Origin: an uncultured Anaerolineae bacterium | Lineage (GTDB): Bacteria > Chloroflexota > Anaerolineae > Aggregatilineales > Phototrophicaceae | Direction: 5' to 3' | Assembly: GCA_938022205.1 (NCBI GenBank) | Contig: CALIEB010000003.1 | Span: 1 to 64,000 of the forward strand | Length of the DNA stretch: 64,000 nt | Part shown: piece by piece, positions 7,022 through 23,365 of the stretch | Layout of the letters: every line of letters starts with the position of its first letter | Numbering within the stretch: the stretch's first letter is position 1 | The notes under the pieces: generated by a model | What the model was told of the DNA's origin: nothing | Seen by the model: only the letters and a program-made list of their open reading frames with translations | Databases searched by the model: none | Position numbers and translations under genes: made by a program

Positions 7022-8596
7022 ATGCAAAATGAGCTGATTTTGGTGGTTGACGACGGCAAAGATAACCGCGAATTCCTCATTGAGTACGTTTTAACGCCAA
7101 ACGGGTTTCGCTATTTAGAAGCATCAGATGGCTATGAGGGGCTGCAGCTCGCCTTAGAGCATCGCCCTGACCTCATTTTGCTTGATTTGCAAATGCCGCG
7201 CATGAACGGCATTCAAGTTTTAGAGCAGCTGCAAGCCAACGGCTTAGACATCCCTGTCATTTTGATGACGTTTCACGGCTCTGAAGACATCGCCGTAGAA
7301 GTTTATCGTCTAGGCGTGCGCGATTACATCAAGAAGCCCTATTACGCCGAAGAAATGCTCGCCGCTATTGAGCGCGGGCTAACGGAAACGCGCTTGCGCC
7401 GTGAAAAAGAGGCACTCACCGAACGCTTGCTGCACGCCAATCGCGAGCTACAGCGGCGGCTTAAAGAGCTGAACACCCTTTATCAAGTGGGCAAAAGCGT
7501 GACCTCTCTGTCGGACATGCAGGTGTTGCTGCCGCGCATCGTCGATTATGCGGTTCAGATGACCCGTGCTGAAGAGGCGAAGCTGATGTTGCTTGAACAG
7601 AAGCAACTTTTTTGTAAGGCAATCAAAAATCAACTGCTGACGCAAGCCAAAGCGGTTAATGAAGTGGTGCAAGACGCGCTGGCACTGCATGTGCTTAAAG
7701 AGCGTCAGCTGGTCTTGTTGACAGGCGATGAGGTGAGCGCGGCGGCGGACGGACGCACTGCGCTGTCGCTGGGGTACGTGCCTTTGCTTATCCAAGACCG
7801 CGTGCTAGGCGTGTTGTGCGTGGCGAATCACACGCCTAACGCGGCAGTATTCACGCAAAATGATATGAATATGCTGAGTGCGCTTAGCGACTATGCTGCC
7901 ATTGCTATAGAAAACTCGCGCAATTACAGCATCCTTCGCCGCTCAAAAGACCGCTTGCGCGAGATTTTCGAGCGATTTGTCGCACCTTCTGTCGTTGAGC
8001 AGGTGATTAACGCGCCCGAGAGCGTGCGGCTAGGCGGCAATCGCCAAGAAATTAGCGTGCTGTTTGCTGACATTCGCGGCTATACAACGTGGAGCGAGAG
8101 TGTCTCGCCGGAGCAAGTTATTGAGACGCTCAATCATTACCTGAGCGTGGCGGCGGAGGTCATTTTAAGTTGGGAAGGCACGCTGGATAAGTTCTTGGGT
8201 GATGGACTGATGGCTATTTTTAACGCGCCGCTGCGGCAAGATGACCATGTCTATCGCGTGGCAGACGCAGCGTTAGCCATGCTGCGTGCCATCGAAGAAG
8301 TCAACGCGCAGTATGGACACCAGCTCAGCTACAGCATTGGGCTGACGGTGGGCGAGGCGGTCGTTGGCTACATTGGCACAGAGCGCGCCGTGAACTACAC
8401 CGCCATTGGCGACACGGTGAACCTTGCCAAGCGTTTGCAAGAGAATGCCGCTCCCAACCAAATCCTCATCGACGAACAAATTGTCCAGCGGCTTGGCAAG
8501 CGCGTGCGCGCGCGTCCCTTAGGCGAACTGCGCGTCAAGGGACGCAAAACGCCTGCCAAAGTCTTTGAGCTGCTGGGGCTTGATGACGCGAACTAG
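7022..8596 (+). CDS. Response regulator-GAF-class III adenylate cyclase
   Basis: The 524-residue product has a receiver at residues 4-120 (Asp10/Asp11, phospho-acceptor Asp55, Lys in YIKKPY), a coiled-coil linker, a GAF-like sensor domain at about 160-300, and a class III cyclase at about 320-520. The cyclase carries LFADIRGYT, the Lys and Asp of DKFLGDGLMA, and NYTAIGDTVNLAKRL, again with Thr in place of the usual Asp. It is therefore a class IIIb-type adenylate cyclase with one more sensor than its upstream neighbour. The two genes are 17 bp apart and surely co-transcribed; they look like a duplication followed by GAF gain or loss. Its TAG stop overlaps the stop of der on the other strand in one CTAG. 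Confidence 0.88.
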   Translation: MQNELILVVDDGKDNREFLIEYVLTPNGFRYLEASDGYEGLQLALEHRPDLILLDLQMPRMNGIQVLEQLQANGLDIPVILMTFHGSEDIAVEVYRLGVRDYIKKPYYAEEMLAAIERGLTETRLRREKEALTERLLHANRELQRRLKELNTLYQVGKSVTSLSDMQVLLPRIVDYAVQMTRAEEAKLMLLEQKQLFCKAIKNQLLTQAKAVNEVVQDALALHVLKERQLVLLTGDEVSAAADGRTALSLGYVPLLIQDRVLGVLCVANHTPNAAVFTQNDMNMLSALSDYAAIAIENSRNYSILRRSKDRLREIFERFVAPSVVEQVINAPESVRLGGNRQEISVLFADIRGYTTWSESVSPEQVIETLNHYLSVAAEVILSWEGTLDKFLGDGLMAIFNAPLRQDDHVYRVADAALAMLRAIEEVNAQYGHQLSYSIGLTVGEAVVGYIGTERAVNYTAIGDTVNLAKRLQENAAPNQILIDEQIVQRLGKRVRARPLGELRVKGRKTPAKVFELLGLDDAN

Positions 8597-10055: not shown

Positions 10056-11318
10056 TTAAGGTGTGCTTGTCGGCGCAACAGTGGGCGAGCTGGGTGGGCT
10101 GATGCTGACGTTAATCACCGCAGGCAGCGGCGTGATGTTGTCTGGCACAATTTCGCCTTGCTGAATCACAATGCGCGGCTCTATTTCTTTGTTGCCTGGG
10201 CTAACGTTATTCAGGTCGATAATCGCGTGAATGTCCTCGCTCGTAATGCTGTTGATTTGCGTGATGGGACCGCTTAACACCACCGAAATTTTGTCGGGCG
10301 TGAACGTAACGCTGTAGCCCGCTGTGAGACCAATGTACTCGACAGGGATGTTATCAAACTGGCGTACGGTGGTTTGTGCTGCGATGCCAATGTTGACCGT
10401 TACCGTGTTGTTCGCACCAATGAGCAGCACACCTTCAGGCAGCGCAAGTGGCACGTCTACGCTAAAATCGCGGGTAGCATCGCTCAGGCTTATTGGCAAC
10501 GTTTCGAGCGTCGCGCCTATCGTGCTTAGCTCACTTAGTGCGCCGCTGACAAACACGCTTTGCGGCTCGTAGCTGATTTTTGTCAGCACATAGCCCTCGC
10601 GCAGCGTCTCGATGCTGATGTTGGGACGCACAGACAGCTGGCGCACGTCGTCGCGCGGGTAGATGCGCGCTTGCACGCGCGTTGTGCGTGGCTCAACCGT
10701 CACGTCGTTCACACGTTTGCCTTGAATGTCTACCGCGTAAAGCGGCACGTCAAGGCTCAGTGGGTTGCGCTGATTGCTTAAATCCACCTCGCCACGCAGC
10801 TCAACGACCTCTAAAACGCGGTTGAGCGCACCGCTTACTTGCGCTTGCAGCACGTCGCTGCTTGGCTCTTCGTAGGTGTAGTCAATCGGCGGTGGGTTGG
10901 TGACCACGAGCGTGACGGGCTTTTGTTCGGTCTTAATTGGCTCTAGGACTAACGTGATTTGTGTGGGCTGGGTGTCTAAAGAGAACGCGCCGCTGCGGTT
11001 AACGGTCACGCTTAACGGCACGGTGTGCGTGCCTTCGCGGCGGTCGCCAAGTTCGGCGCGCACGACAATATCCTCGCTCGCCAACAAATCGAGCGTGCTT
11101 TGCTGCGCTCGCACGAACACCCGCGCCGTCGCCCGCGTCGGCGACGTGAGGATAAGCCCGCTTGGTACTTCGATTTGCACAGGGATGTTGTTAAAACTGC
11201 GCTGGTTGATAGGGTTCGATTGCAAGGTGGCGGTTGCCCACACCAACAACGCCAGCAGCAGCGACACCAAGAACCATCCCACGTTTTGCCAAAACTCGGA
11301 AGACGTGCGCTGCGTCAT
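10056..11318 (-). CDS. cdaR: YbbR-domain protein, regulator of c-di-AMP synthase
   Basis: One membrane segment near the N-terminus (about residues 12-28) is followed by about four YbbR-type repeats of 80-90 residues, each with the pattern of a short beta-rich unit such as VPVQIEVPSGL and VSVSGALSELSTIG. A Pro/Ser/Thr-rich tail ends the protein. CdaR proteins of this form sit outside the membrane and adjust the activity of CdaA. The gene starts only 3 bp after the cdaA stop, so the two are co-translated in the usual cdaA-cdaR order. In Firmicutes glmM often comes next; here der follows instead, after a terminator. Confidence 0.88.
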   Translation of the reverse strand: MTQRTSSEFWQNVGWFLVSLLLALLVWATATLQSNPINQRSFNNIPVQIEVPSGLILTSPTRATARVFVRAQQSTLDLLASEDIVVRAELGDRREGTHTVPLSVTVNRSGAFSLDTQPTQITLVLEPIKTEQKPVTLVVTNPPPIDYTYEEPSSDVLQAQVSGALNRVLEVVELRGEVDLSNQRNPLSLDVPLYAVDIQGKRVNDVTVEPRTTRVQARIYPRDDVRQLSVRPNISIETLREGYVLTKISYEPQSVFVSGALSELSTIGATLETLPISLSDATRDFSVDVPLALPEGVLLIGANNTVTVNIGIAAQTTVRQFDNIPVEYIGLTAGYSVTFTPDKISVVLSGPITQINSITSEDIHAIIDLNNVSPGNKEIEPRIVIQQGEIVPDNITPLPAVINVSISPPSSPTVAPTSTP

Positions 11319-11321
11319 GGC

Positions 11322-12191
11322 TTATCCTTGTTTCTGCGCCACTTTGCTCGGCTTTGCCCATAAGCGCAGCCGCTCTAGCACGCTGCGCCAGCGCGCTTGG
11401 TTGCGTTGGCTGTAGATTTCGCCATAGAACGCGCCGAGAATGGTTCTCATGCGCTCGGGGTCAAGTTTGCTGACGATACGCCCGCCGTTGGCAATCGAAA
11501 TGCGCCCGCTTTCTTCCGAAACGACCACACAAATAGCATCGCTCACCTCGCTAATGCCTAACGCGGCACGGTGGCGCGTTCCCATCTTGGGGTTAGGCAG
11601 GTTGCGGCTTGCGCTCAAAGGCAACACCGCTGCCGCAGAGGCAATGCGCCCGCTGCGGTCGATAATCACCGCGCCGTCGTGCAGCTCGGTTTTGGGCCAA
11701 AAAATGGTCAGCAACAGCTCGGCTTTTACGGCACTGTTAAGCGCAACGCCGGTGTTGATGAATTCCTCTAGTCCACTGTTGCGCTGCAACACAATCAGCG
11801 CGCCGTGCCGCCGTTCCGAGAGCCGCTCACACGCCTTGACAATCTCATGGATAATTTGCTCGCGCTCGGTGTTCGAAGATTGTGCGTTGAGGAAGATGCC
11901 CGCTCGCCCCACTTGTTCCAACGCGCGCCTTAGCTCGGGCTGAAAAATCACAGGGATTGCCACCGCCAGCACGGTCAGACCGTTCGTCAGTAACCACCCC
12001 AATGCTTGCAAGCGAAAGACCAGCGTCGCACTGAACAACACCAACAGGATGACAAGGATGCCACGCATAAGCGCGGCGGCTTGTGTGCCGCGAAAGACAA
12101 ATGTCACGCCAAAGAACAGCACCGCCACGACAAAAATATCGAGTAGAGCAGTCGGCGTGAGGCTGTCAATCATCCAGCGCAGTTCTTGCAT
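11322..12191 (-). CDS. cdaA: Diadenylate cyclase (c-di-AMP synthase)
   Basis: Three membrane segments at about residues 15-90 are followed by a DisA_N catalytic domain. The substrate-binding motifs are intact: HDGAVIID carries the DGA motif and GTRHRAALG carries RHR. The enzyme joins two ATP into c-di-AMP, a second messenger that controls osmolyte and potassium transport and envelope stability. The length of 289 residues fits the family. It sits between a TPR protein gene 13 bp upstream and cdaR 3 bp downstream, as part of an operon that also holds polA and argF. No c-di-AMP phosphodiesterase is seen in the window. Confidence 0.94.
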   Translation of the reverse strand: MQELRWMIDSLTPTALLDIFVVAVLFFGVTFVFRGTQAAALMRGILVILLVLFSATLVFRLQALGWLLTNGLTVLAVAIPVIFQPELRRALEQVGRAGIFLNAQSSNTEREQIIHEIVKACERLSERRHGALIVLQRNSGLEEFINTGVALNSAVKAELLLTIFWPKTELHDGAVIIDRSGRIASAAAVLPLSASRNLPNPKMGTRHRAALGISEVSDAICVVVSEESGRISIANGGRIVSKLDPERMRTILGAFYGEIYSQRNQARWRSVLERLRLWAKPSKVAQKQG

Positions 12192-12204
12192 CGTTGTGTC
12201 TCAC

Positions 12205-14457
12205 TTAGAGGAGCTGCGAGAGCAGCTTTTGGTATTCTTCTACGCGGTCAGGCTTCAGCGCGATAATTTGGCGGATGGTGTTGGCCGCCTCTTTGTTCAA
12301 ACCCGCCTGCAGTTGCAGTTCACCGAGCGCGTCGAGATGGTGAATCGCTTTGGCGTTTTGCCCCAGCTTGCGATAGATACTGGCAACGCGCGCCCGTAGT
12401 GCCATTTCGTCAGGGTACTGGCTGATAAGGTCTTCGAGCATGCTCACCATGCTGTTGACCATGTTCTTTTGTGCGTATAAACTGAGCAGACTGTCCAAGC
12501 GTTTGACCGCTTCGGCGTTGTTACCTTGTGTGTAGTAAATGCCGACGAGGTTTTTGAGTGCCTTTTCATCGTCAGGAATGAGTTCCAAAATTTCCTCAAA
12601 TACCTTCTGGGCTTGGCGTGTGTTCAGCCGCATCATATGCACTTCGGCGGTCGCGTGTTTAATCTCTGCGAGCTTTTTGGCGGGGGCATTAATGCGGCGG
12701 GCAATGCGCTCCGCGCTGCCGAGCGTTTGATTTGACCGCTCAAAATCGCCTAGCTGCTGATAGGTGTTGGCGAGGTCAATGTACTGGTCAACCACCTCAG
12801 ACCAACGCTCCTCTTTCTCTAAAAGCTCAATCAAGTTCATGCGCACCTCGATGTCTAGCGGTGCCATGTCTAGCACTTCGCCCAAAATTGAGGCAGCGCG
12901 TTGGTTTTCATCACGCACCATATACGCGCGCGCGACCACGTTATACTTGGTGATGGCTTGGCGGATGCGCCCTTCCTTCATCATGATTTCTGCCATGCGC
13001 ACGTGAACAGGCAAATAGAACGGTGCCTGCTCAACCGCGCGGTGTGCTTCGTCCATTGCCAGCGTGTACAAGCCTTGACGGATGAAACGGTCGATGCGCG
13101 TCACGCTCTCGGCAAGCTCATCGCTACCCGCAGATGCCAAAAAGTCAACCACGCTGTTGTTGTCGCTGCCCATAAACGTTTCGCTGATGTGGCGGCGCGT
13201 GTCGGCAATGCGCTGCTTCCAATCTTTGCCGCTTAACAAGCCAATAAAACGCTCGTTCACCAACCGAAGCGTCTCTTTGTTGCGTCCTTCCAGCGCAGCA
13301 AGGATGTTCTCGTAGACAAGCTGTAACTCTTGTGCTTCGTTATCGCTTGTGCTTAGCGACGTGTCGACGGCTTGCAGGCTTTGCACGAGATAGCGCGTGG
13401 CTTTGGTCTGCTCGTCTAGCTTGTAGTAGGCTAAGCCCAGCGCGTGCATCGCCCCCGCGCTGAGTCGGGGGTGCATAATGGCATCAGCGACGTAGGTGAT
13501 GGCATCTTTAGGCTGGTCATTCAGCACCAAAAGCCCGCCCAAGCACATGCGCGCCGCTGGATGGCGCAGCCCTGCTTTGTCGGCTTCGCGGTAGGCGGCA
13601 ATGGCTTCAAGACTGCTGCCTTGCCGCTGCAGCGACATGGCTTTGAGCGCGTGTCCGGCAGAGGCATCTAAGCCAATCTCCACGACGTGTTCCGCCAGTA
13701 ACGTGAGGGCTTCTGTGAGTGCCTCGCCGATAGGTCCCAGCGGGTCAGCTTCGCCCACAACACGCCCCTTGTCGTTTTCAGGTGACCAGAAAAGGTCTTC
13801 CACCTTTTCCTCTTTGGCGGCTTTGCTGCTGCGCTTGCGGTTGAGAATTTCGTCGGGCAAAATAACCTCACCGCCTGACTTTAGCGCGCGCAAGATGTTC
13901 AGAGCCAGCGCGTTGTTTTTGTCCAGCATCAACGCTCGCTCGACGGCGCGAATGGCTTTCTCTATGTCGTTAATGCGACGGAAGTTGAACGCCAGCAGCA
14001 AATACTCTTGAATGGCGCGCTGCTTGTTGCCAAGACGCTCATATCCCTGCGCTAGCTTGGCGTGTACACCTACCAAGCCGGGCGTGAGCTGTGTGGCGCG
14101 CTCCCAATTGTCAATGGCGCGGTCAAGTTCTCGGCGTTCGAGATATAAATCCGCCACCTTGACGTAGTGCTGAGCTGCCTCACGCAGCTGCCCAATGCGC
14201 TCTAAGGCATCCGCGCTGCGTTCAATCGGCTCCGGTTCTTTAGGTGCAAGCTCAATCGCGCGCTTGTACGTCGCTAAGGCGCGTTCATACTGCCCTAAAT
14301 TGAGATAGGCTAAACCAAGATTGATGTGTCCTTCTGCCTCATCGGGCATAAGCTGGACAGCTTTCTGATAACAGTCCGCTGCGGTTTTCCAGTCATTTGT
14401 CCATGCCGCGTTGTAGCCTTTTTGGATGAGCTGCTGAAATTCGTCCCGAGTTGACAT
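12205..14457 (-). CDS. Tetratricopeptide repeat scaffold protein
   Basis: The protein of about 750 residues is almost all helical repeats. At least four clear TPRs cover residues 15-190 (for example AEGHINLGLAYLNLGQYERALATYKRA, read as a pattern), and further degenerate repeats run to the end, including a final block at about 560-745. A charged, non-repeat stretch lies at about 200-240. There is no signal peptide or membrane segment, so it should be cytoplasmic. TPR arrays bind other proteins; no partner can be named. I chose ATG 14457, which has AGAGG at a good distance, over a GTG at 14466. It lies between argF and cdaA with short gaps and is probably in their transcript. Confidence 0.8.
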   Translation of the reverse strand: MSTRDEFQQLIQKGYNAAWTNDWKTAADCYQKAVQLMPDEAEGHINLGLAYLNLGQYERALATYKRAIELAPKEPEPIERSADALERIGQLREAAQHYVKVADLYLERRELDRAIDNWERATQLTPGLVGVHAKLAQGYERLGNKQRAIQEYLLLAFNFRRINDIEKAIRAVERALMLDKNNALALNILRALKSGGEVILPDEILNRKRSSKAAKEEKVEDLFWSPENDKGRVVGEADPLGPIGEALTEALTLLAEHVVEIGLDASAGHALKAMSLQRQGSSLEAIAAYREADKAGLRHPAARMCLGGLLVLNDQPKDAITYVADAIMHPRLSAGAMHALGLAYYKLDEQTKATRYLVQSLQAVDTSLSTSDNEAQELQLVYENILAALEGRNKETLRLVNERFIGLLSGKDWKQRIADTRRHISETFMGSDNNSVVDFLASAGSDELAESVTRIDRFIRQGLYTLAMDEAHRAVEQAPFYLPVHVRMAEIMMKEGRIRQAITKYNVVARAYMVRDENQRAASILGEVLDMAPLDIEVRMNLIELLEKEERWSEVVDQYIDLANTYQQLGDFERSNQTLGSAERIARRINAPAKKLAEIKHATAEVHMMRLNTRQAQKVFEEILELIPDDEKALKNLVGIYYTQGNNAEAVKRLDSLLSLYAQKNMVNSMVSMLEDLISQYPDEMALRARVASIYRKLGQNAKAIHHLDALGELQLQAGLNKEAANTIRQIIALKPDRVEEYQKLLSQLL

Positions 14458-14488
14458 AGTGAACACATCCTCTTAAAAGTTCTTGACG

Positions 14489-15412
14489 TTAGTTCGCCAT
14501 CAAATGCACAAGGATGGCTTTTTGCGCGTGTAAGCGATTTTCCGCTTGTTGGAAAATGGCGGAATGCGCGCCGTCTGCGACCTCGTCAGTAATCTCTTCG
14601 CCGCGATGCGCCGGCAAGCAGTGCATGACAATGCTGTTTGCGTCCGCAACCTTGAGCAGGTTAGCGTTGATTTGGTAGTCCTTGAAGACTTTGCGGCGTG
14701 CCTCTGCTTCCGCCTCTTGCCCCATGCTCGTCCATGTGTCTGTGTAAAGCACGTGCGCGCCCTGCGCTGCCTCTTCCACGCTTTCGGTCGTGATTATGCG
14801 GATGCCGCTGGCTTGCGCTAGCTCTCTGCCTTTCGCCAAAACGGCCTCCGGCAGCGCGTAGCCTTGCGGCGTGGCGATGGCAAAGTCAAAGCCAAACTTC
14901 GTTGCCGCGAACAACAGCGAGGTCGCCACGTTGTTGCCGTCGCCAATGTAAGCTAATTTCAAACCCTCAAGCCGCCCGAACCGCTCTTTGATGGTCAGCA
15001 CGTCTGCCATCGCTTGGCAAGGGTGCGAATAGTCGCTCAAGCCGTTAATCACCGGCACTTTTGACCAAGCCGCCAGCTGCTCAACATGGGCGTGGTCGAA
15101 CACGCGCGCCATAATGCCCTGCACCATGCTGGCAAGCACTCGCGCTACATCGGGGATGCTCTCGCGCTGCCCTAAGCCAATCTCCTGCGGGCTGAGCATG
15201 AGCGCATGTCCACCCAAATGAAACATCGCCACGTCAAAGCTCACGCGGGTGCGCAGCGAGGGCTTTTGAAAAATCATGCCGAGTGTTTTGCCCGCCAACA
15301 CAGGGCGATTGCCGCCGTTTTGCCACTCTTTCTTGAGGTCTTCGGCGAGGCTGATAACGTGCTTAAGCGCGTCGCTTGACCAGTCAGCAATCGTCAGAAA
15401 ATCTTTATGCAT
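14489..15412 (-). CDS. argF: Ornithine carbamoyltransferase
   Basis: The 307-residue enzyme makes citrulline from ornithine and carbamoyl phosphate in arginine synthesis. The carbamoyl-phosphate loop is [22 protein letters not shown] is intact, and [12 protein letters not shown] near the C-terminus is the ornithine-specific HCLP motif that separates it from aspartate carbamoyltransferase. Length and order are normal. No other arginine genes are in the window, so it stands apart from the pathway between polA and the TPR gene. An extended -10 element (TGCTATACT, 15451-15443) in the 40-bp gap after polA gives it a likely promoter of its own. Confidence 0.95.
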
Positions 15413-15452: not shown

Positions 15453-18212
15453 CTAATTCAAGGCTTGCATATCAAGCCAGTTTGGTCCGTATTCTGCGTT
15501 GGCGACCAATGGCACGTCAAGGCTATAAGCGTTCTGCATGACCTCGATGACCCACGCTGCGACCTCTTCAAGCTGTTCTTTTGGCACTTCAAACACCAGC
15601 TCATCATGCACTTGCAGCGTCATTTTGACCTGTGGGAAGCGTGGCAGCTCGTCGTAAAGCTGTATCATCGCCAGCTTGAGAATGTCCGCCGCTGTGCCTT
15701 GAATAGGCGCGTTGATGGCGGCGCGCAGGTCTGCTTGTGCCTCTTGGCTGGTGGTGCCGCGCTGTAGACGCGGAAAGTAGCGTTTGCGCCCCAACAGCGT
15801 CTCGACATAGCCTTTGCTAATGGCTTGCTGCTTGGTTGTTTCAATGTAGCGTTCGACGTTAGGCATCTGCTGAAAATAGCGTTGAATGAAGGCGTTGGCT
15901 TCTGCTAGCGTGAGGTCGCTGTCGCGGGCAAGGCGAAACGCGCCCATGCCGTACATCAACCCGAAGTTGATGCGCTTGGCAAAGCTGCGCTGCTCAGGCG
16001 TAACTTCTGCCAGCGGCACGCCGTACACGGCGGCGGCGGTTGCCTTGTGAATGTCTTGTCCCTCGTGGAAGGCGCGTTTAAGCGTCGCGTCGCCGCTGAT
16101 GTGCGCCATCACGCGCAGCTCGATTTGGCTGTAATCTACCGCCAGCAGCCAACAATCGTTCGGGGCAATAAAGGCGCGGCGCACCTCACGCCCCATCTCG
16201 GTGCGTATAGGGATGTTCTGAAGGTTAGGGTTGCTGCTGCTAAAACGTCCGGTGGACGTGCCAGTCTGGTTGTAGCTGGTGTGGACACGCCCCGTCTCGG
16301 GGTTCACCAGCTGCGGCAGCGCGTCGATGTAGGTGCTTTTCAACTTCGTTAGTTCGCGGTACTCGATGAGCAGCGCGATGATTGGGTGCGCGCCCTTGAG
16401 TGCTTCGAGCGTCACGATGTCTGTGGAAAAACCGTGCTGCTTACGCTTGAGCCCGGTTGTCGACAGCTTAAGATGGTTAAACAGCACCTCGTTGAGCTGT
16501 TTAGGGCTGCTGATGTTAAAGCTCATGCCGCTTAGCTCAAAAATGCGCGCTTCTAAGTCGCGCACCAGCTCGGCAAACTGCGCGCTCATTTGCTTTAAGT
16601 AGGGCAGGTCAAGCAACGCGCCCCAACGTTCCATCTGCGAAATGATAGGCACAAGCGGCATCTCTACGCGCTCGAACAGCTCGAGCAGCCCTCTCTCGCT
16701 TAGCTTTGGCTTGAGATAGTGCATCGCGCGCAGCGTGACAGTCGCATCAGCAGCGGCGTAGGGCGCAACATCGCTGATAGCAAGCTCCGCCATGCTGCGC
16801 TGCTGCTTGCCGCTGCCGATAAGCTCGCCGATTTCTTGCATGCGAATGCCCAGCTCTTGCAGTGCAAAATGCTTCAATCCCAAGAAGCGGCTGACGGGGT
16901 CGCGCACCCACTCGGCTAGCATCGTGTCGAAGACAATTGGCGTTACGTCAAGTCCATGCCGCTGCATGATGGTGAGGTCGTAAGTGGCGTTATGCGCGAC
17001 CTTGCCAATGTCGGCACGAGTCAGCGGCTCACGCAGCGCGTCGATAACTTGTGCAAGCGGCAGCTGCTGCGCAACGGGTTGCTCGAACAACGTGCCTTTG
17101 CCTTCGGCGATATGCCCAACGGGGATGTAATAACCAATCTCGGTATCTACCGCCAGCGCAATACCTACTAGCGCGGCGCGCATGGCATCCACCCCTGTCG
17201 TTTCGGTGTCAAAAGCGATAATGTCCGCGTTGTTCAGGCGCGCTGCTAACGCAGCGAGAGCTTCAGGCGTGTCGACGATAACCGTTTGTGTAACAGCCTC
17301 CAACACGGTGGGTGTGGTGCCGGTGCCGCTGGTCTTAACGTTCAGGAGCCGCTGCCGCAGACTGCGAAACTGCAGCGTTTCAAACAGCGCGTCCACGACA
17401 CCCACGTCAAAATCTTGGGTAACGCAGGCGTTAAGGTCGAGCGTAATAGGCAAATCGCGCTGAATAGTGGCGAGTTTTTGGCTCAAAAACGCCATTTCGC
17501 GCCCTTGTTTGAGCTTTTGCTGTACCGCGCCCTTCACAGCGTCGAGGTTGGCGTAGATATTTTCTAGCGTGCCGAACTGTTGCAAGAGCTGGGTGGCGGT
17601 TTTTTCGCCGATGCCTGCCACACCCGGAATGTTGTCCGAGCTATCGCCCATGAGGGCTTTGAGGTCAATCAGCTGCTGTGGCTGCAAGCCGTACTTTTCG
17701 ACAAACTTGGGTGTGTCGTAGAGGACATCGTCGCCTTTTGTGCTGGCAAGCTGGATGCGCACATGTGGGCTAAGCAGCTGCAGCATGTCGCGGTCGCCGG
17801 TGATGACGCGCACGTCAATCGCCTGCTCATCTGCTTGGCGCGTGACCGTGCCAATCACGTCGTCCGCTTCACAGCCTTCTAACTCGAGCAATGGGATGTT
17901 GAAGGCGCGGACGAGTTGATAAAGGCGCGGTATTTGCTGCGCAAGTTCTTCGGGCATGGCACTGCGATTTTGCTTGTAGCTGGGGTAAAGTGCCTCGCGT
18001 CCACTCAAGCCTTTGTCAAACGTCACCGCAAGATAGCGCGGCTGCTCTTTCTCTAAAATGTCGAGCAGTACCCGCGCGAAGCCGTACACCGCGCCTGTTG
18101 GCTCACCGTCACGGGTGCTGAAGCTCGCGCCGCGCGCCGCGTTGAAGGCGTAGAACTGGCGGTATGCCATCGCGTGACCATCAATTAAGTACAGCGTTGG
18201 GTTTTCGGCCAT
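15453..18212 (-). CDS. polA: DNA polymerase I
   Basis: The 919-residue protein has all three PolA domains. A 5'-nuclease domain fills about residues 1-300, with acidic sites such as [12 protein letters not shown] and EADDVIG. A 3'-5' exonuclease domain follows at about 310-500; [10 protein letters not shown] keeps the DxE metal ligands and DLTIMQRHG the later Asp, so proofreading is probably active. The polymerase domain has motif [11 protein letters not shown], the helix around [16 protein letters not shown], and motif [11 protein letters not shown]. It fills gaps and removes RNA primers. It starts 22 bp after the pseudo-receiver gene and is likely co-transcribed with it. Confidence 0.97.
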
Positions 18213-18234
18213 GCGGCGACTTCCTCACAGGGCG

Positions 18235-20007
18235 TTATTGACGGACAAAGTTGATAAAGGCTTGCAAGTCGTCGACAGGCAGCGCATGACCGGGCGTGAC
18301 CATCAGGTAAGCATCCGCCCAAAGCGTGCTGGCGTTTGTTTGTGGCAGCGCATCGGCGATGTGTTGCGCACTTTCTTGCATGAGCATGTGCAGGTGCGCT
18401 TGTGCCGATTGGGCTAGCGGCGCGTCCGCCCACAAATAAACGTAGTCTTCAGCAACCGTTAGCTCATGCAGCAGCCAGCCGCGCTGAGTCAAGGCGCGCG
18501 TGAGTTTTTCCTCAAGCTGGCGCGTGACCGACTTGGGCAAGCTGGCCTGTGGGTCGCGCAGCAACCACGCAAAGCTCAGCGGGCTGGTTGGTACGTTGGG
18601 GCGCACGATAGGCTCTTCGTCTGCGGCGGTAGCTTCTTCCACCACGTCAGGAATGGCCATGAGAGCTTCGACAAGGCGATTGCCTTGTCGACGAATGACA
18701 CTCAAAGGTAGCGTGCCAAGAAACAACAGCGACAAGATAAAGCCTTCAGGCGTGCGCTGCGAATAGAGCAGGTAGTCCGTGCCGTTGCTAGGCAGATTGA
18801 CGTACTTCATGCGCGCCTGCTGCTGCGGGTCGTCCCAACCCTCGACAATTAGCGGGTGCAATAGGGCAATGTCACTTTCGTGCAGCTCGCCTTGTTGCGC
18901 TATGATTGTTTGCCCTTGTGTTAACACAAGGGCTTCGGCGGTCATCTCGAGCGATAGCTGCGTTAGTACCAGCACCATTTGTGCTACGCGCGGGTTAACG
19001 GGTGGCTGCTCGGCAGACGGTGCTGGCTCGCTTGTAGCTTCTTCGGTCGGCGTGTCGAACGGAGGGCGCGTGCGCGTTGTTGGTGCGAGTTTGTCCGTCT
19101 CTAGCTCCGCAGAGTTTAGCATGCTGCTGTGTGAAGGGCTGGTTGTGGTCGCGGTGTATTCTAACTGCTCGGGAAGCTGAGGCAAATTGACCAAGAACGA
19201 CGGCTCTTTTAGCATGGGCTGCTCTTCGCTGGCAACGTTGGCTAAGAGCGCGTCTGCCCACTCGCGGATGTTGTCCGCCGCAATGGGGGTTGACGTGTCT
19301 TGCGCTGCCTCGAGAATTTGCGCTGCGAGGATTTGCCGTGATGCGCTGGTGACAACCACCTGCGCGGCGGATGCTGTTTCATCTGCTTCTTGGCTGCTGG
19401 CAATCCATTCGCCATCATGTGCTAGAATAAAATCGCGCACTGTGCCGCTCTCCTCAAAGTCCGGCATAGGCGGTTCTTCAGCAGCGAGCTTGGCGAAGCG
19501 TTTGAGCGATTCCTCGTAGTTGCGCTGTGCGTCGGAGACAGGCGTATCGCCTTCAACCAATGGTGGCTCCTCGTGCAAGCTGCGCGTCTCGTCGACGTTG
19601 TCCAAACGCGGCATGGCAGCAGTGTCGGGTTGGGCGGCGTGCATCGCTTCAATGGCTTGTTCGATTGTTTTGGTCAGCGCACGGATAGGGCTGGGCAGCG
19701 TGACATAGGCTTGGACGTTTAGGCTTGCTGTGGCTTCGCGAACCTGCGGGGTGTCGGGCGCAAGAACTAGCGCGATGTCGGGCTGGTGAGTCCGCAGCTG
19801 GCGCAGTATTTGTTCAGGTGGCAAGTCGTTTACCGTCACATCAACAATAGCGACCGCGTGGGGCAGGTGCTGCTGTAGCGCGAGCGCGTTGTTGTGCGAC
19901 GCGAATGCCGACACGATGAACTTGCCGTCACGCTCCAATGACTCGCGCAGTTTGATGGAAAAATCGATGTGGCGTGTGACCAGCAAAACCCGCTTAGGGA
20001 CGAACAC
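18235..20007 (-). CDS. Pseudo-receiver / Roadblock-like / degenerate IS200-like (HUH) three-part protein
   Basis: The chosen GTG start at 20007 has GGAGAGGAAG upstream and gives 590 residues beginning MFVPKRVLLVTR; a longer reading frame up to 20163 would run over the divergent promoter and is rejected. Residues 5-120 look like a receiver domain that kept the phospho-site Asp (AIVDVTV) but lost the acidic pair (TRH instead). A long Pro/Glu/Ser-rich linker follows. A region near 385-475 (VLTQGQTIIAQQGEL) resembles Roadblock/LC7 or GAF-type folds. The last ~115 residues follow the IS200 transposase pattern: GW-LHELTV-ED-V-LWADAP, then LWADAYLMV and a final FVRQ. Both His of the HUH motif are Tyr (YVY) and no catalytic Tyr is left, so it cannot transpose. 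Role unknown; it lies before polA and divergent from a receiver-kinase. Confidence 0.7.
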   Translation of the reverse strand: MFVPKRVLLVTRHIDFSIKLRESLERDGKFIVSAFASHNNALALQQHLPHAVAIVDVTVNDLPPEQILRQLRTHQPDIALVLAPDTPQVREATASLNVQAYVTLPSPIRALTKTIEQAIEAMHAAQPDTAAMPRLDNVDETRSLHEEPPLVEGDTPVSDAQRNYEESLKRFAKLAAEEPPMPDFEESGTVRDFILAHDGEWIASSQEADETASAAQVVVTSASRQILAAQILEAAQDTSTPIAADNIREWADALLANVASEEQPMLKEPSFLVNLPQLPEQLEYTATTTSPSHSSMLNSAELETDKLAPTTRTRPPFDTPTEEATSEPAPSAEQPPVNPRVAQMVLVLTQLSLEMTAEALVLTQGQTIIAQQGELHESDIALLHPLIVEGWDDPQQQARMKYVNLPSNGTDYLLYSQRTPEGFILSLLFLGTLPLSVIRRQGNRLVEALMAIPDVVEEATAADEEPIVRPNVPTSPLSFAWLLRDPQASLPKSVTRQLEEKLTRALTQRGWLLHELTVAEDYVYLWADAPLAQSAQAHLHMLMQESAQHIADALPQTNASTLWADAYLMVTPGHALPVDDLQAFINFVRQ

Positions 20008-20043
20008 AGCGCGCTTCCTCTCCAAGACGTTCTCATAGCTACC

Positions 20044-20049
20044 ATTGTA
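20044..20049 (-). promoter_or_regulatory. -10 element for the pseudo-receiver gene
   Basis: The minus strand reads TGTACAAT, with TG directly before the hexamer TACAAT. It is about 37 bp ahead of the GTG start at 20007 and supports that start over the longer frame. Confidence 0.4.
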
Positions 20050-20117
20050 CAGAAAAATCCCAAAGCCGAAAACGCAGTAATAAAGTTTCTTTAGCCCCTT
20101 AACGCGATAGGATGCGC

Positions 20118-20123
20118 TATAAT
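20118..20123 (+). promoter_or_regulatory. -10 element for the receiver-histidine kinase gene
   Basis: A perfect TATAAT lies 34 bp before the ATG at 20157. No -35 match is seen at 16-18 bp. With the minus-strand element at 20049-20044 it forms a divergent promoter pair. Confidence 0.5.
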
Positions 20124-20156
20124 ATCGAAGTGAATTGACGTTGCTTGGGGTGTTTG

Positions 20157-21269
20157 ATGACAACTGCTAAAAAAATCCTTATCATTGAAGATGGAAAAGA
20201 CTTGCGCGATGACGTGATTGAGATGTTGTCTTTGGAAGGTTACGAGGCGTTTGGCGCAGAAAATGGCTTGGTTGGGCTTAACATGGCAATCCAAGAAACC
20301 CCCGACCTCATCATCTGTGATGTGATGATGCCTGAGCTTGATGGCTACGAAGTGCTAGAACGTTTGCGCAAAAACCCAAAAACTGCCACAATTCCCTTCG
20401 TGTTTCTCACGTCGCGTACGGAGCGCGTCAACATGCGGCAGGGCATGGTCTTAGGGGCTGATGACTATTTGACGAAGCCGTTTCACGTGAGTGAGCTGCT
20501 TGACACCATCCAATCGCAGTTGGGCAAGCGCGCCGAACTCAACGCGGTGGCACAGCGTCGCCTTGACGAGCTGCGCGAGAGCATTACTATTTCTCTGCCG
20601 CATGAAATGCGCACGCCGCTTAATACCATCATCGGCTTTTCAGATATGCTCATTGCCGAAGCGCAGCGGCTTAAGCCTGACCAAGTCATTGAGTGGGCGA
20701 CACATATCAACAAAGCGGCCAATCGCCTCTTCCGCATCGTGGAAAACTATCTTATCTATGCTCGCGTTGCGCTAATTAACAGTGACCCGCAAGACCTAGA
20801 GGACTACCGCCAGCACACGATGCGCGATTTGGGCATGCTGCTGCGTTTGGTCGGGGAGCGCGTTGCCGAACGCTACGAGCGCATGCAAGATCTGCACATT
20901 GTTATCGCGGAGGATGCTGCCGAATGCGAGGTGTGTGCCAGCTACATTGATGTCCAGAAAGCTGTGGACGAGGTGCTAGACAATGCCTTTAAGTTTAGTG
21001 AAGCTGGTCAACCGGTCAACGTGCGCATGAGCTTGCGCGATGGGCGGTGCGTGATTAGCGTGCAAGACGAAGGGCGCGGCATCACACCCGAGCAAATCGC
21101 TGAAATTGGCGCGTATCGGCAGTTCGACCGTGACTTCTATGAGCAGCAAGGGCTTGGCTTGGGGTTGACCATTGCGATGCAGCTGCTCAAGCTATATGAC
21201 GCTGAACTAAGTTTTGTGAAAGGCACGTCGTGTGGTACGACTGTGGAGATGAGTTTTCGCACCGTTTGA
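20157..21269 (+). CDS. Hybrid receiver-histidine kinase (REC-HisKA-HATPase)
   Basis: The 370-residue soluble protein has a receiver at residues 5-122 (Glu11/Asp12, phospho-acceptor Asp55 in LIICDVMMP, Lys in YLTKPF). It is followed by a HisKA domain whose His is in LPHEMRTPLN at about 148, and an HATPase with N box DEVLDNAFKF, DEGRGI, and GLGLGL. A receiver in front of a kinase suggests control by an upstream phosphorelay. I chose ATG 20157 over a TTG at 20145. The neighbouring pseudo-receiver protein across the divergent promoter is a possible partner, though this is only positional. Confidence 0.9.
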   Translation: MTTAKKILIIEDGKDLRDDVIEMLSLEGYEAFGAENGLVGLNMAIQETPDLIICDVMMPELDGYEVLERLRKNPKTATIPFVFLTSRTERVNMRQGMVLGADDYLTKPFHVSELLDTIQSQLGKRAELNAVAQRRLDELRESITISLPHEMRTPLNTIIGFSDMLIAEAQRLKPDQVIEWATHINKAANRLFRIVENYLIYARVALINSDPQDLEDYRQHTMRDLGMLLRLVGERVAERYERMQDLHIVIAEDAAECEVCASYIDVQKAVDEVLDNAFKFSEAGQPVNVRMSLRDGRCVISVQDEGRGITPEQIAEIGAYRQFDRDFYEQQGLGLGLTIAMQLLKLYDAELSFVKGTSCGTTVEMSFRTV

Positions 21270-21271
21270 CT

Positions 21272-21300
21272 TTGTGCAATCGCGGGCAATCGCGTATAAT
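21272..21300 (+). promoter_or_regulatory. Promoter of the LysM lipoprotein gene
   Basis: A perfect TATAAT (21295-21300) lies 17 bp after TTGTGC (21272-21277), right behind the stop of the kinase gene. Confidence 0.55.
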
Positions 21301-21343
21301 CTAGGCAAGAGCTTTGTATAGTGCTTGCCCTAAAGGATTTCGC

Positions 21344-22285
21344 ATGACGACAACAAGACATTCTGGGCGTATGTTTATTCTCGTGCTGTTTGCTGTGCTG
21401 GTTTTAAGCGCGTGCTATCAGAACATTGGCGACGAGTCACAGCCTACTGCTATTTCGCAAGGGTTGCCCACAGCCACGTTTACTCCCTTTCCAACGGAAA
21501 CACCCACGCCCACAGCAACACCAACGTTAGAGCCGACCGAAGTTGTCACTGAGGAGGTGTTTCTGCCAACAGAGACTGAACCTGCAGTGATGGCAGCAAC
21601 TGAAGAAGATACAAGCACGGTGTTGTTGATGGCGGAGTCTGTTAGTCAGAGTGACACGGTGCAGCAGCAAGACCCGTTTATCCTGACTGCCACGCAGTAT
21701 GTGCTTGACGTGACGCAAACCGCTGAGGTGTCACTGACGCAAACCGCGTTTGCGCTGGGTCTTGGTGCTACGCCGACACCGACCGAGACCCCTACGCCGA
21801 ATTTGTTCGCTCCAGCCGCGACCCAGCCTTTTACGACAACCGGCGGCACAAGCGGATTTGTGGGTGGTAACTGCGTGCATGAAATACGGCAGGGCGAGAA
21901 CTTGTTCCGCCTGTCTTTGCGCTACGGCGTGTCGGTGGCTGACCTCGCTGCCGCTAGCGGCATCACCAATTACAATCTGGTGTTGATTGGGCAAAAAATC
22001 AACGTGCCGGGCTGCGGCACGACGGGCGTGCTGCCGCCGCCCACAAGCATCCCTACGCAGCCGCCGGTGAGCGCGGGCGGTACGGGTGGCGCGTTTGCGC
22101 AGGGCGCAACAGGCGGTCCCGCAGCGGGCGGCGTGAGCCGCGTACATGTCGTTCAGCAGTATGAGAGCCTTTTCCAAATCTCATTGATGTACGGAGTGTC
22201 GGTGCAAAGTATCGCCAATGCCAACGGCATCACGAACATCAACTACATCGTGATGGGGCAGGAGCTTATTATCCCGCCGCGTTAA
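21344..22285 (+). CDS. Lipoprotein with two LysM domains
   Basis: The 313-residue product begins with a lipoprotein signal: basic MTTTRHSGR, a hydrophobic core, and the lipobox LSAC, so it should be lipid-anchored on the outer membrane face. A long Thr/Pro/Glu-rich linker reaches about residue 175. Two LysM domains follow: one with HEIRQGENLFRLSLRYGVS and one at the C-terminus with HVVQQYESLFQISLMYGVS, joined by a Gly/Ala-rich spacer. LysM domains bind N-acetylglucosamine polymers such as peptidoglycan or related glycans. No hydrolase domain is fused, so it probably acts as an anchor or sensor. ATG 21344 has AAAGGA upstream; a TTG at 21314 is less likely. A clear terminator follows. Confidence 0.85.
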   Translation: MTTTRHSGRMFILVLFAVLVLSACYQNIGDESQPTAISQGLPTATFTPFPTETPTPTATPTLEPTEVVTEEVFLPTETEPAVMAATEEDTSTVLLMAESVSQSDTVQQQDPFILTATQYVLDVTQTAEVSLTQTAFALGLGATPTPTETPTPNLFAPAATQPFTTTGGTSGFVGGNCVHEIRQGENLFRLSLRYGVSVADLAAASGITNYNLVLIGQKINVPGCGTTGVLPPPTSIPTQPPVSAGGTGGAFAQGATGGPAAGGVSRVHVVQQYESLFQISLMYGVSVQSIANANGITNINYIVMGQELIIPPR

Positions 22286-22309
22286 CATCACCAAAACGAA
22301 CGGCGTACA

Positions 22310-22338
22310 AGAGGCGGCAGCGTGTCCGCCTCTTTTTT
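22310..22338 (+). terminator. Rho-independent terminator after the LysM gene
   Basis: A perfect 8-bp stem AGAGGCGG / CCGCCTCT (22310-22317 and 22326-22333) with an 8-base loop is followed by a run of T. It is 24 bp after the stop. Confidence 0.85.
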
Positions 22339-22360
22339 GGTTTAGCAAAAGGAGCGTGAC

Positions 22361-22891
22361 GTGGAAGAACGAAGCGTGAACATTACGCCAATCTATCAAG
22401 GGCGCGTGATACGTGTCGAGCAGCATGACGTGATTTTGCCCAACGGCACGCCAAGCAAGCGCGACCTCGTGGTACATCCGGGCGCGGTGGCGATTGTGGC
22501 GTTGGACGATGAGGCGCGCGTGCTGCTTGTCGAGCAGTATCGCTTTGCGGCGCGGCGCACGCTGTACGAGATTCCCGCTGGCACGCTCGACCCCGACGAA
22601 ACGCCTTTGGTCTGCGCTCGCCGCGAGCTGCGCGAAGAAACGGGCTACGAGCCGCTTGAATTGCAAAGCATCGGCGGCATTTACATGGCACCGGGCTACA
22701 CGACCGAATATCTGCACCTGTTCTTTGCGCCGCGTGTCGCCTATGCGCCGCTTCGTCCCGATGAGGACGAGTTTATTCAGCTGCACCGCGTCACGCTCTC
22801 GCAAGCGTTGGCAATGATTGCCGACGGCACGATTGAGGACAGCAAAAGCATCGTAGGATTGCTCAAGGTTGCCCGCCTGCGCGGCGTATGA
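22361..22891 (+). CDS. NUDIX hydrolase, ADP-ribose pyrophosphatase-like
   Basis: The 176-residue enzyme has an intact Nudix box: G-x5-E-x7-REL-x-EE-x-G from PAGTLDPDETP through RELREETGY. This loop binds the metals used to split nucleoside diphosphate-X bonds. The sequence around it (VLLVEQYRFAARRTLYEIPAG) is typical of ADP-ribose and related sugar-nucleotide pyrophosphatases. The start is GTG at 22361 with AAAGGAG seven bases upstream. It stands alone between a terminator and the rplS promoter. Substrate within the family is uncertain. Confidence 0.88.
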   Translation: MEERSVNITPIYQGRVIRVEQHDVILPNGTPSKRDLVVHPGAVAIVALDDEARVLLVEQYRFAARRTLYEIPAGTLDPDETPLVCARRELREETGYEPLELQSIGGIYMAPGYTTEYLHLFFAPRVAYAPLRPDEDEFIQLHRVTLSQALAMIADGTIEDSKSIVGLLKVARLRGV

Positions 22892-22896
22892 TGCCC

Positions 22897-22925
22897 TTGT
22901 GAAGTGCGCGTTGTGACGCTATAAT
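22897..22925 (+). promoter_or_regulatory. Promoter of rplS
   Basis: TTGTGA (22897-22902) and a perfect TATAAT (22920-22925) are exactly 17 bp apart. It is among the best vegetative promoters in the window, and transcription should start near 22932. Confidence 0.7.
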
Positions 22926-22955
22926 GCTTTTTCGTTTTGTGAGCAAACATCGAGG

Positions 22956-22978
22956 ATACGCCGCGCGGCGTATTTTTT
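22956..22978 (+). promoter_or_regulatory. Attenuator-like hairpin in the rplS leader
   Basis: ATACGCCGCGCGGCGTAT (22956-22973) is a perfect palindrome that can form a 7-bp stem with a GCGC loop, followed by six T. It lies between the promoter and the rplS ribosome site (AGGAAGG), so it has the form of an intrinsic terminator inside the 5' leader. Confidence 0.6.
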
Positions 22979-22999
22979 AGGTCAGGAAGGTAAACCCTC

Positions 23000-23365
23000 A
23001 TGAATGAATTTGAAATGTTGAAGGCATTGGAAGCCCCTAGCCGCGAGCATCCGCAAGTGGAAGCGGGCGATACCGTTAAGGTGCATGTGCGCATTGTCGA
23101 AGGTGACCGTGAGCGCGTGCAAATCTTTCAGGGGCTGGTCATTCGCGTGCGCGGCGGGGGCAACAACGCCAATTTTACCGTGCGCCGTATTGCTAGCCAC
23201 AGCGTGGGCGTGGAACGTACCTTTCTCATGAAAAGCCCTCGTATCGAAAAAATTGAAATCTTGCGCCGTGCCAAAGTCCGCCGGGCGCAGCTTTACTACA
23301 TGCGCGACCTGCGCGGTAAAGCCGCACGCCTTAAGGAAAGACGCGACACGCCCAAGCAGTCTTAA
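23000..23365 (+). CDS. rplS: Ribosomal protein L19
   Basis: The 121-residue product matches bL19 of the large subunit, at the 30S-50S interface. Recognisable stretches are [22 protein letters not shown] (read as a pattern), [27 protein letters not shown] and the [20 protein letters not shown] end. The length is normal. AGGAAGG precedes the ATG. The usual rpsP-rimM-trmD neighbours are absent, so the gene stands alone with its own promoter and a hairpin leader that could adjust its output. Confidence 0.97.

Follow-up and report, generated by a model that had tools for sequence, protein, structure and literature searches.

The window, a stretch of 64,000 nucleotides from an uncultured Anaerolineae bacterium, carries next to polA a gene for a protein that joins a degenerate receiver domain, a Roadblock-like domain and a catalytically dead relative of the IS200-type (Y1) transposases. 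The account of this gene that we consider moderately probable is that an IS200 transposase was fused once to a polA-linked receiver-Roadblock gene, that different lineages then lost its active site in parallel and by different routes, and that its fold has become a dimerising or contact module under strong selection. An earlier note, made from the sequence alone, had described a dead IS200-like domain at the end of this gene and had interpreted it as transposase recruitment; the observation is confirmed, and the interpretation is supported by the comparisons below. If true, this account lets the states before and after a transposase capture be compared in bacteria. The gene also points to a polA-linked regulator, so far uncharacterised, in a phylum that is large and little studied.

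Architecture and neighbourhood of the gene

The gene occupies positions 18235-20007 on the reverse strand and is an open reading frame of 590 amino acids with a GTG start. In the homologue alignment, the homology of the relatives sets in near the GTG at 20007, which was therefore taken as the start. A longer frame opening with a TTG at 20163 was rejected because the homologues give no support for that start. A Pfam search with the full-length protein returned a C-terminal Y1_Tnp match above the curated cut-off, a weak N-terminal receiver match and nothing notable between the two, and Rfam gave no match. Taken with profile and fold searches, Pfam bears out the three-part plan proposed earlier, namely a receiver, a Roadblock/MglB-like part and an IS200-type Y1 domain.

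The N-terminal domain (19636-20004, reverse strand) is a true receiver relative, as PF00072 matched 29 of 29 homologues. Phosphorylatable response regulators carry an acidic pair, a phospho-accepting Asp, a Thr or Ser and a Lys. In the window the residue table gives T,R / D / P / L at these positions, and of the five residues the phospho-Asp alone remains. The earlier description of a receiver-like domain without its acidic pair is thus correct, with the amendment that the phosphorylatable Asp has been retained. In this order, the Aggregatilineales, the receiver probably no longer answers phosphorylation in the usual way. A poorly conserved linker (19021-19635, reverse strand), highly variable in length among the relatives in the homologue alignment, leads to a Roadblock/LC7 (MglB-like) domain at 18634-19020 on the same strand. 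Pfam alone did not recognise this region, and profile and fold searches were needed. The profile search of PDB matched MglB at E 5e-4, the AlphaFold model was confident (pLDDT 85), and Foldseek placed MglB on top, followed by other Roadblock proteins. The middle domain, already suspected to be Roadblock-like, therefore has its fold and profile in common with MglB and other Roadblock/LC7 proteins, and differs from them in its fusion with a receiver and a transposase domain and in being missed by Pfam.

Directly downstream, at a distance of 22 nt, lies the conserved neighbour polA, which encodes DNA polymerase I (15453-18212, reverse strand; Pfam). Beyond polA follows a run of argF, a TPR protein, the diadenylate cyclase gene cdaA and a YbbR protein (10056-15412, reverse strand; Pfam and relatives' loci), and this run is largely conserved in the relatives. 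A divergent receiver-histidine kinase gene lies next door at 20145-21269 on the forward strand. Its receiver is intact (PF00072, 88.9 bits), and a relative of the gene was seen at only eight of the relatives' loci. The window also contains a gene for a receiver-GAF-adenylate/guanylate cyclase protein at 7022-8596 on the forward strand.

The transposase-like domain and its active site

The C-terminal domain (18238-18630, reverse strand) was assigned to the IS200/Y1 transposases (TnpA) on the basis of PF01797, PDB profiles, AlphaFold, Foldseek and VIA. Searched alone, the last ~120 residues scored 34.7 bits with PF01797 (Y1_Tnp), for which the gathering cut-off is 23, and the same family matched 38 of 39 members of the order (E up to 1). 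Searching PDB with the single sequence was enough to find the IS200 transposase 2f4f (E 2e-4), and a profile of 39 order homologues retrieved eight distinct TnpA sequences first, with a best E of 9e-17. An HMM built as a control from 25 Chloroflexota IS200 transposases only, with no dead domain included, gave the window domain 36.3 bits, while the best of 5,000 shuffles reached 11.2. A chance or composition artefact is ruled out by these shuffle scores, which lie far below the real score, contrary to the outcome by which the earlier note would have been overturned. An AlphaFold model of the domain, made with 36 homologues in the alignment, had a pLDDT of 86 and the order strand-helix-strand-strand-helix-strand-helix. 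Foldseek hits 1-29 in PDB were IS200-type TnpA chains and the 30th was a RAYT, after which the E-value jumped more than 10-fold. VIA-align scored the 15 TnpA entries at Z 11-14; the entry after them, an unrelated one, reached 8.6. The structure comparison that the earlier note had proposed thus recovered the TnpA-type fold. Ferredoxin-like folds are common, and S6-type entries reach a Z of about 7 in VIA, which is the basis on which the domain might be taken for a chance ferredoxin-like fold with no transposase kinship. This alternative is already refuted for practical purposes, given that sequence profiles alone reach TnpA at 9e-17, nearly all order members match PF01797 and shuffled sequences score far lower.

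With the IS200/IS605 TnpA proteins (PF01797; IS608, ISDra2, PDB 2f4f) the domain shares the fold, the sequence profile and the order of the core motifs, that is VW, a D-x-U-x block, LWxxSY and a terminal helix. It differs from them in the absence of the HUH motif and of the catalytic Tyr, in its fusion to receiver and Roadblock domains, in the lack of visible element ends and, within the order, in its acidic character. Functional HUH endonucleases and transposases carry the HUH motif and a Tyr on the last helix. Alignment to IS200 transposases showed that in the window the former is Tyr-Val-Tyr (18436-18444, reverse strand) and the latter is Phe (18256-18258, reverse strand), so the reported replacement of HUH by YVY and loss of the catalytic Tyr hold. 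In 74 rows from the order, Y or F predominates at the first HUH position and Y at the second, and 69 of the 74 have Phe in place of the catalytic Tyr. None of these 74 rows or of 10 class rows has both His. Families f34 and f58 have Y-x-Q at this site, with both His lost and the Tyr often kept. All 15 sampled fused rows of family f42 keep the second His, with the first mostly Leu and the Tyr gone, and one f42 genus keeps HVH and has lost the Tyr. The survey of homologues that had been proposed therefore found a broken active site in every fused homologue sampled; no complete site with both His and the Tyr occurred among the 74 order, 10 class and 15 f42 rows. This mosaic of residual active-site residues points to the capture of an intact or almost intact domain, which then decayed separately in each branch. 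Aggregatilineales would have lost nearly all catalytic residues, f34 both His but often not the Tyr, and f42 the Tyr but not the second His.

The dead domain has nevertheless been maintained. Its dN/dS was 0.04-0.15 in 14 close pairs and did not exceed the whole-protein value in any of the 14, several of which share members and are therefore not independent; these ratios indicate strong purifying selection. Conservation across families and the dN/dS values rule out a local degenerate IS insertion or pseudogene. A viral origin was also considered and rejected, with no relative found among viral contigs with the patterns used.

Distribution and origin of the fusion

A match to the protein was found in 53 of 61 near relatives, in many of them across all three parts. 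The named records belong to Anaerolineae and Aggregatilineales, and nearly all are MAGs. Fused forms occur throughout the order Aggregatilineales and, within the class, also in families f34, f58, f62, f41 and f42. The three-part plan, a search for which in other Chloroflexota genomes had been recommended, is thus present in several other Anaerolineae families. Elsewhere in the phylum the matches are almost all stand-alone and of transposase size. The IS200/IS605 mobile elements have a stand-alone tnpA and subterminal hairpin ends, whereas the window has a fused gene without obvious ends and in vertical synteny with polA. The repeat scan revealed no obvious transposon ends, and the genome of the window contains no second Y1_Tnp match, in agreement with the earlier statement that transposon ends, repeats and accessory transposase genes are absent nearby.

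The gene usually precedes polA directly. In the order, polA lies directly downstream on the same strand at 49 loci, where the projected gap is 2-217 nt apart from a single case of 631 nt, while 17 loci have room for it but no downstream polA, four are truncated and four have polA at 1.4-4.3 kb; in these counts some loci represent one genome fetched twice. The adjacency is missing in the order families f3, f6, f7 and f8, so that the linkage need not mean a functional tie to PolA. Outside the order, polA is the downstream neighbour in f34 and f58 too, and in an f42 genome. The gene upstream of polA in family f17 is a receiver-Roadblock gene without a transposase domain, and in families f16 and f35 it is a receiver gene of similar size, likewise without one. 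The receiver-Roadblock relative without Y1 was present in 13 of 13 f17 genomes; polA was right behind it in six fetched loci, and at others it was not visible from the flank or the search. For comparison, 11 Chloroflexota genomes from outside the class were examined, and none had a receiver, Roadblock or Y1 domain within the 1.5-kb flanks of polA. As the sister lineage has the polA-linked gene without the transposase domain, the recruitment of a transposase, as first proposed, is supported.

Two trees bear on the number of captures. The PolA tree took its root from 11 genomes outside the class, had SH-aLRT as its sole support measure and left f41 out. It placed every tested fusion carrier in one clade (SH-aLRT 99), with f17 as its sister (99) and f16 and f35 deeper. 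In the domain tree, based on 127 columns and with IS200 rows from Chloroflexota only, a 99/99 branch divides all dead domains from the IS200 transposases, among which fall two HUH-altered relatives. The simplest reading is a single capture, in which a resident polA-linked gene gained Y1 once and the site then decayed piecemeal in separate lineages. That Aggregatilineales and f34/f58 captured IS200 domains independently might be suspected because the domains of the order and of the class are distant from each other and unlike in charge and in leftover active-site residues. This is very unlikely, since the domain order and the polA neighbour are identical in both, the dead domains stand together across the 99/99 branch from IS200 and their carriers form one PolA clade. 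It is also quite unlikely, if somewhat less so, that the ancestor of the class already had Y1 and that f17, f16 and f35 have since lost it. Loss does happen, as in one f42 genus the gene upstream of polA consists of the Roadblock part only (L244:7941-8423, L249:7021-7593). This is a secondary reduction, since the genus lies inside the fusion clade. With f17 as sister and f16/f35 deeper, however, ancestral presence would require repeated loss, and one gain is preferred. According to the single-capture reading, an IS200 element probably inserted between the 3' end of the receiver-Roadblock gene and polA and was the source of the domain, and this would have occurred once, in the ancestor of Aggregatilineales, f34/f58/f62 and f42. 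No ends of the element survive at the capture site. The unfused, ancestor-like state in the sister family and the intermediate active sites of side branches make the steps of bacterial transposase exaptation directly testable.

Two further groups of Y1-like proteins were observed. The f34 genomes have stand-alone dead Y1-like proteins of 144-231 aa (L199-L205) that fall near the fused f34 domains. These are paralogues of the domesticated domain that lack the receiver and Roadblock parts, sometimes with several per genome (G692). A small family from other Chloroflexota (L186, L187; 136-172 aa) has an altered HUH (DRVYVA, DRVYLA), groups at 100/100 inside the IS200 tree and is possibly a separate domestication.

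Putative function and relation to known systems

The charge of the domain has changed along with its active site. IS200 transposases have a median net charge of +7, the fused domains at class level one of +3, and those of the window's order one of -7; nearly all members of the order are acidic (net -15 to +1). The dead domains of the order keep core positions of IS200, namely the W of VW, LW, the following Y and the Ile after the lost Tyr, and the IS200 Pro-Lys-x-Arg and Lys-Gly positions are mostly changed. DNA binding is disfavoured in Aggregatilineales because the domain has turned acidic there, and the sequences favour a structural or contact role. Of the two roles named in the earlier note, DNA-binding or dimerising, the latter is thus the one that the comparison favours, and the former appears doubtful in this order. 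That cleavage alone was lost, and that the domain continues to tether the signalling protein to DNA by binding hairpins or single strands, we regard as unlikely, though less so than the other alternatives. TnpA is a hairpin-binding fold, the f34 members are still basic and often keep the Tyr, and the gene adjoins a DNA polymerase gene in distant families. Such a tether is opposed by the acidity of the order and by its replaced basic motifs. The f34 domain, being still basic, could bind nucleic acid.

TnpA and Roadblock families form homodimers. The joint explanation of capture, branch-wise decay and function that we hold to be moderately probable is that the protein acts as a dimeric signalling scaffold, in which the Roadblock and TnpA-like domains would hold the protein together and offer surfaces to partners. 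The TnpA fold would be a dimerising or protein-contact module and not a nuclease, and in Aggregatilineales it probably no longer binds DNA.

A survey of TnpA Y1 proteins has classified those sharing the HuH/Y core and has described RAYTs with REP sequences (PMC6006769). The same survey discarded unexpectedly long proteins as gene fusions or annotation errors (PMC6006769). TnpA_REP/RAYT (PDB 4er8) is, like the window domain, a relative of IS200 TnpA kept by its host. RAYTs are described as having a conserved HuH/Y core (PMC6006769), whereas the site in the window is dead and the domain lies inside a signalling protein. In addition, 4er8 ranks well below the IS200 TnpAs in VIA as a fold match to the window domain. 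Within 16000-23000, the stretch covered by the repeat scan, no REP palindrome family was seen. RAYTs are the known bacterial domestication in this transposase family, with proteins described as keeping the core; the Anaerolineae families show another path, in which the fold is retained and catalysis given up inside a signalling protein. The annotation "IS200 transposase" in Anaerolineae should be read with caution, as it includes host genes. A literature search, with incomplete coverage of domesticated bacterial transposases, found no description of a receiver-Roadblock-Y1 fusion, and the earlier note likewise knew of none.

In the RomR-MglA-MglB polarity module of Myxococcus xanthus, a receiver protein shares one pathway with a Roadblock protein and a Ras-like GTPase (PMC3441718). 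These are separate proteins there, whereas the receiver and Roadblock parts in the window form one chain with a transposase domain. The Roadblock part of the scaffold possibly meets a Ras-like GTPase. The genome of the window encodes a Ras/Arf-like small GTPase of 183 aa (L298:1486-2034), which is a candidate partner of the Roadblock domain, and the gene ahead of it looks DUF4388-like.
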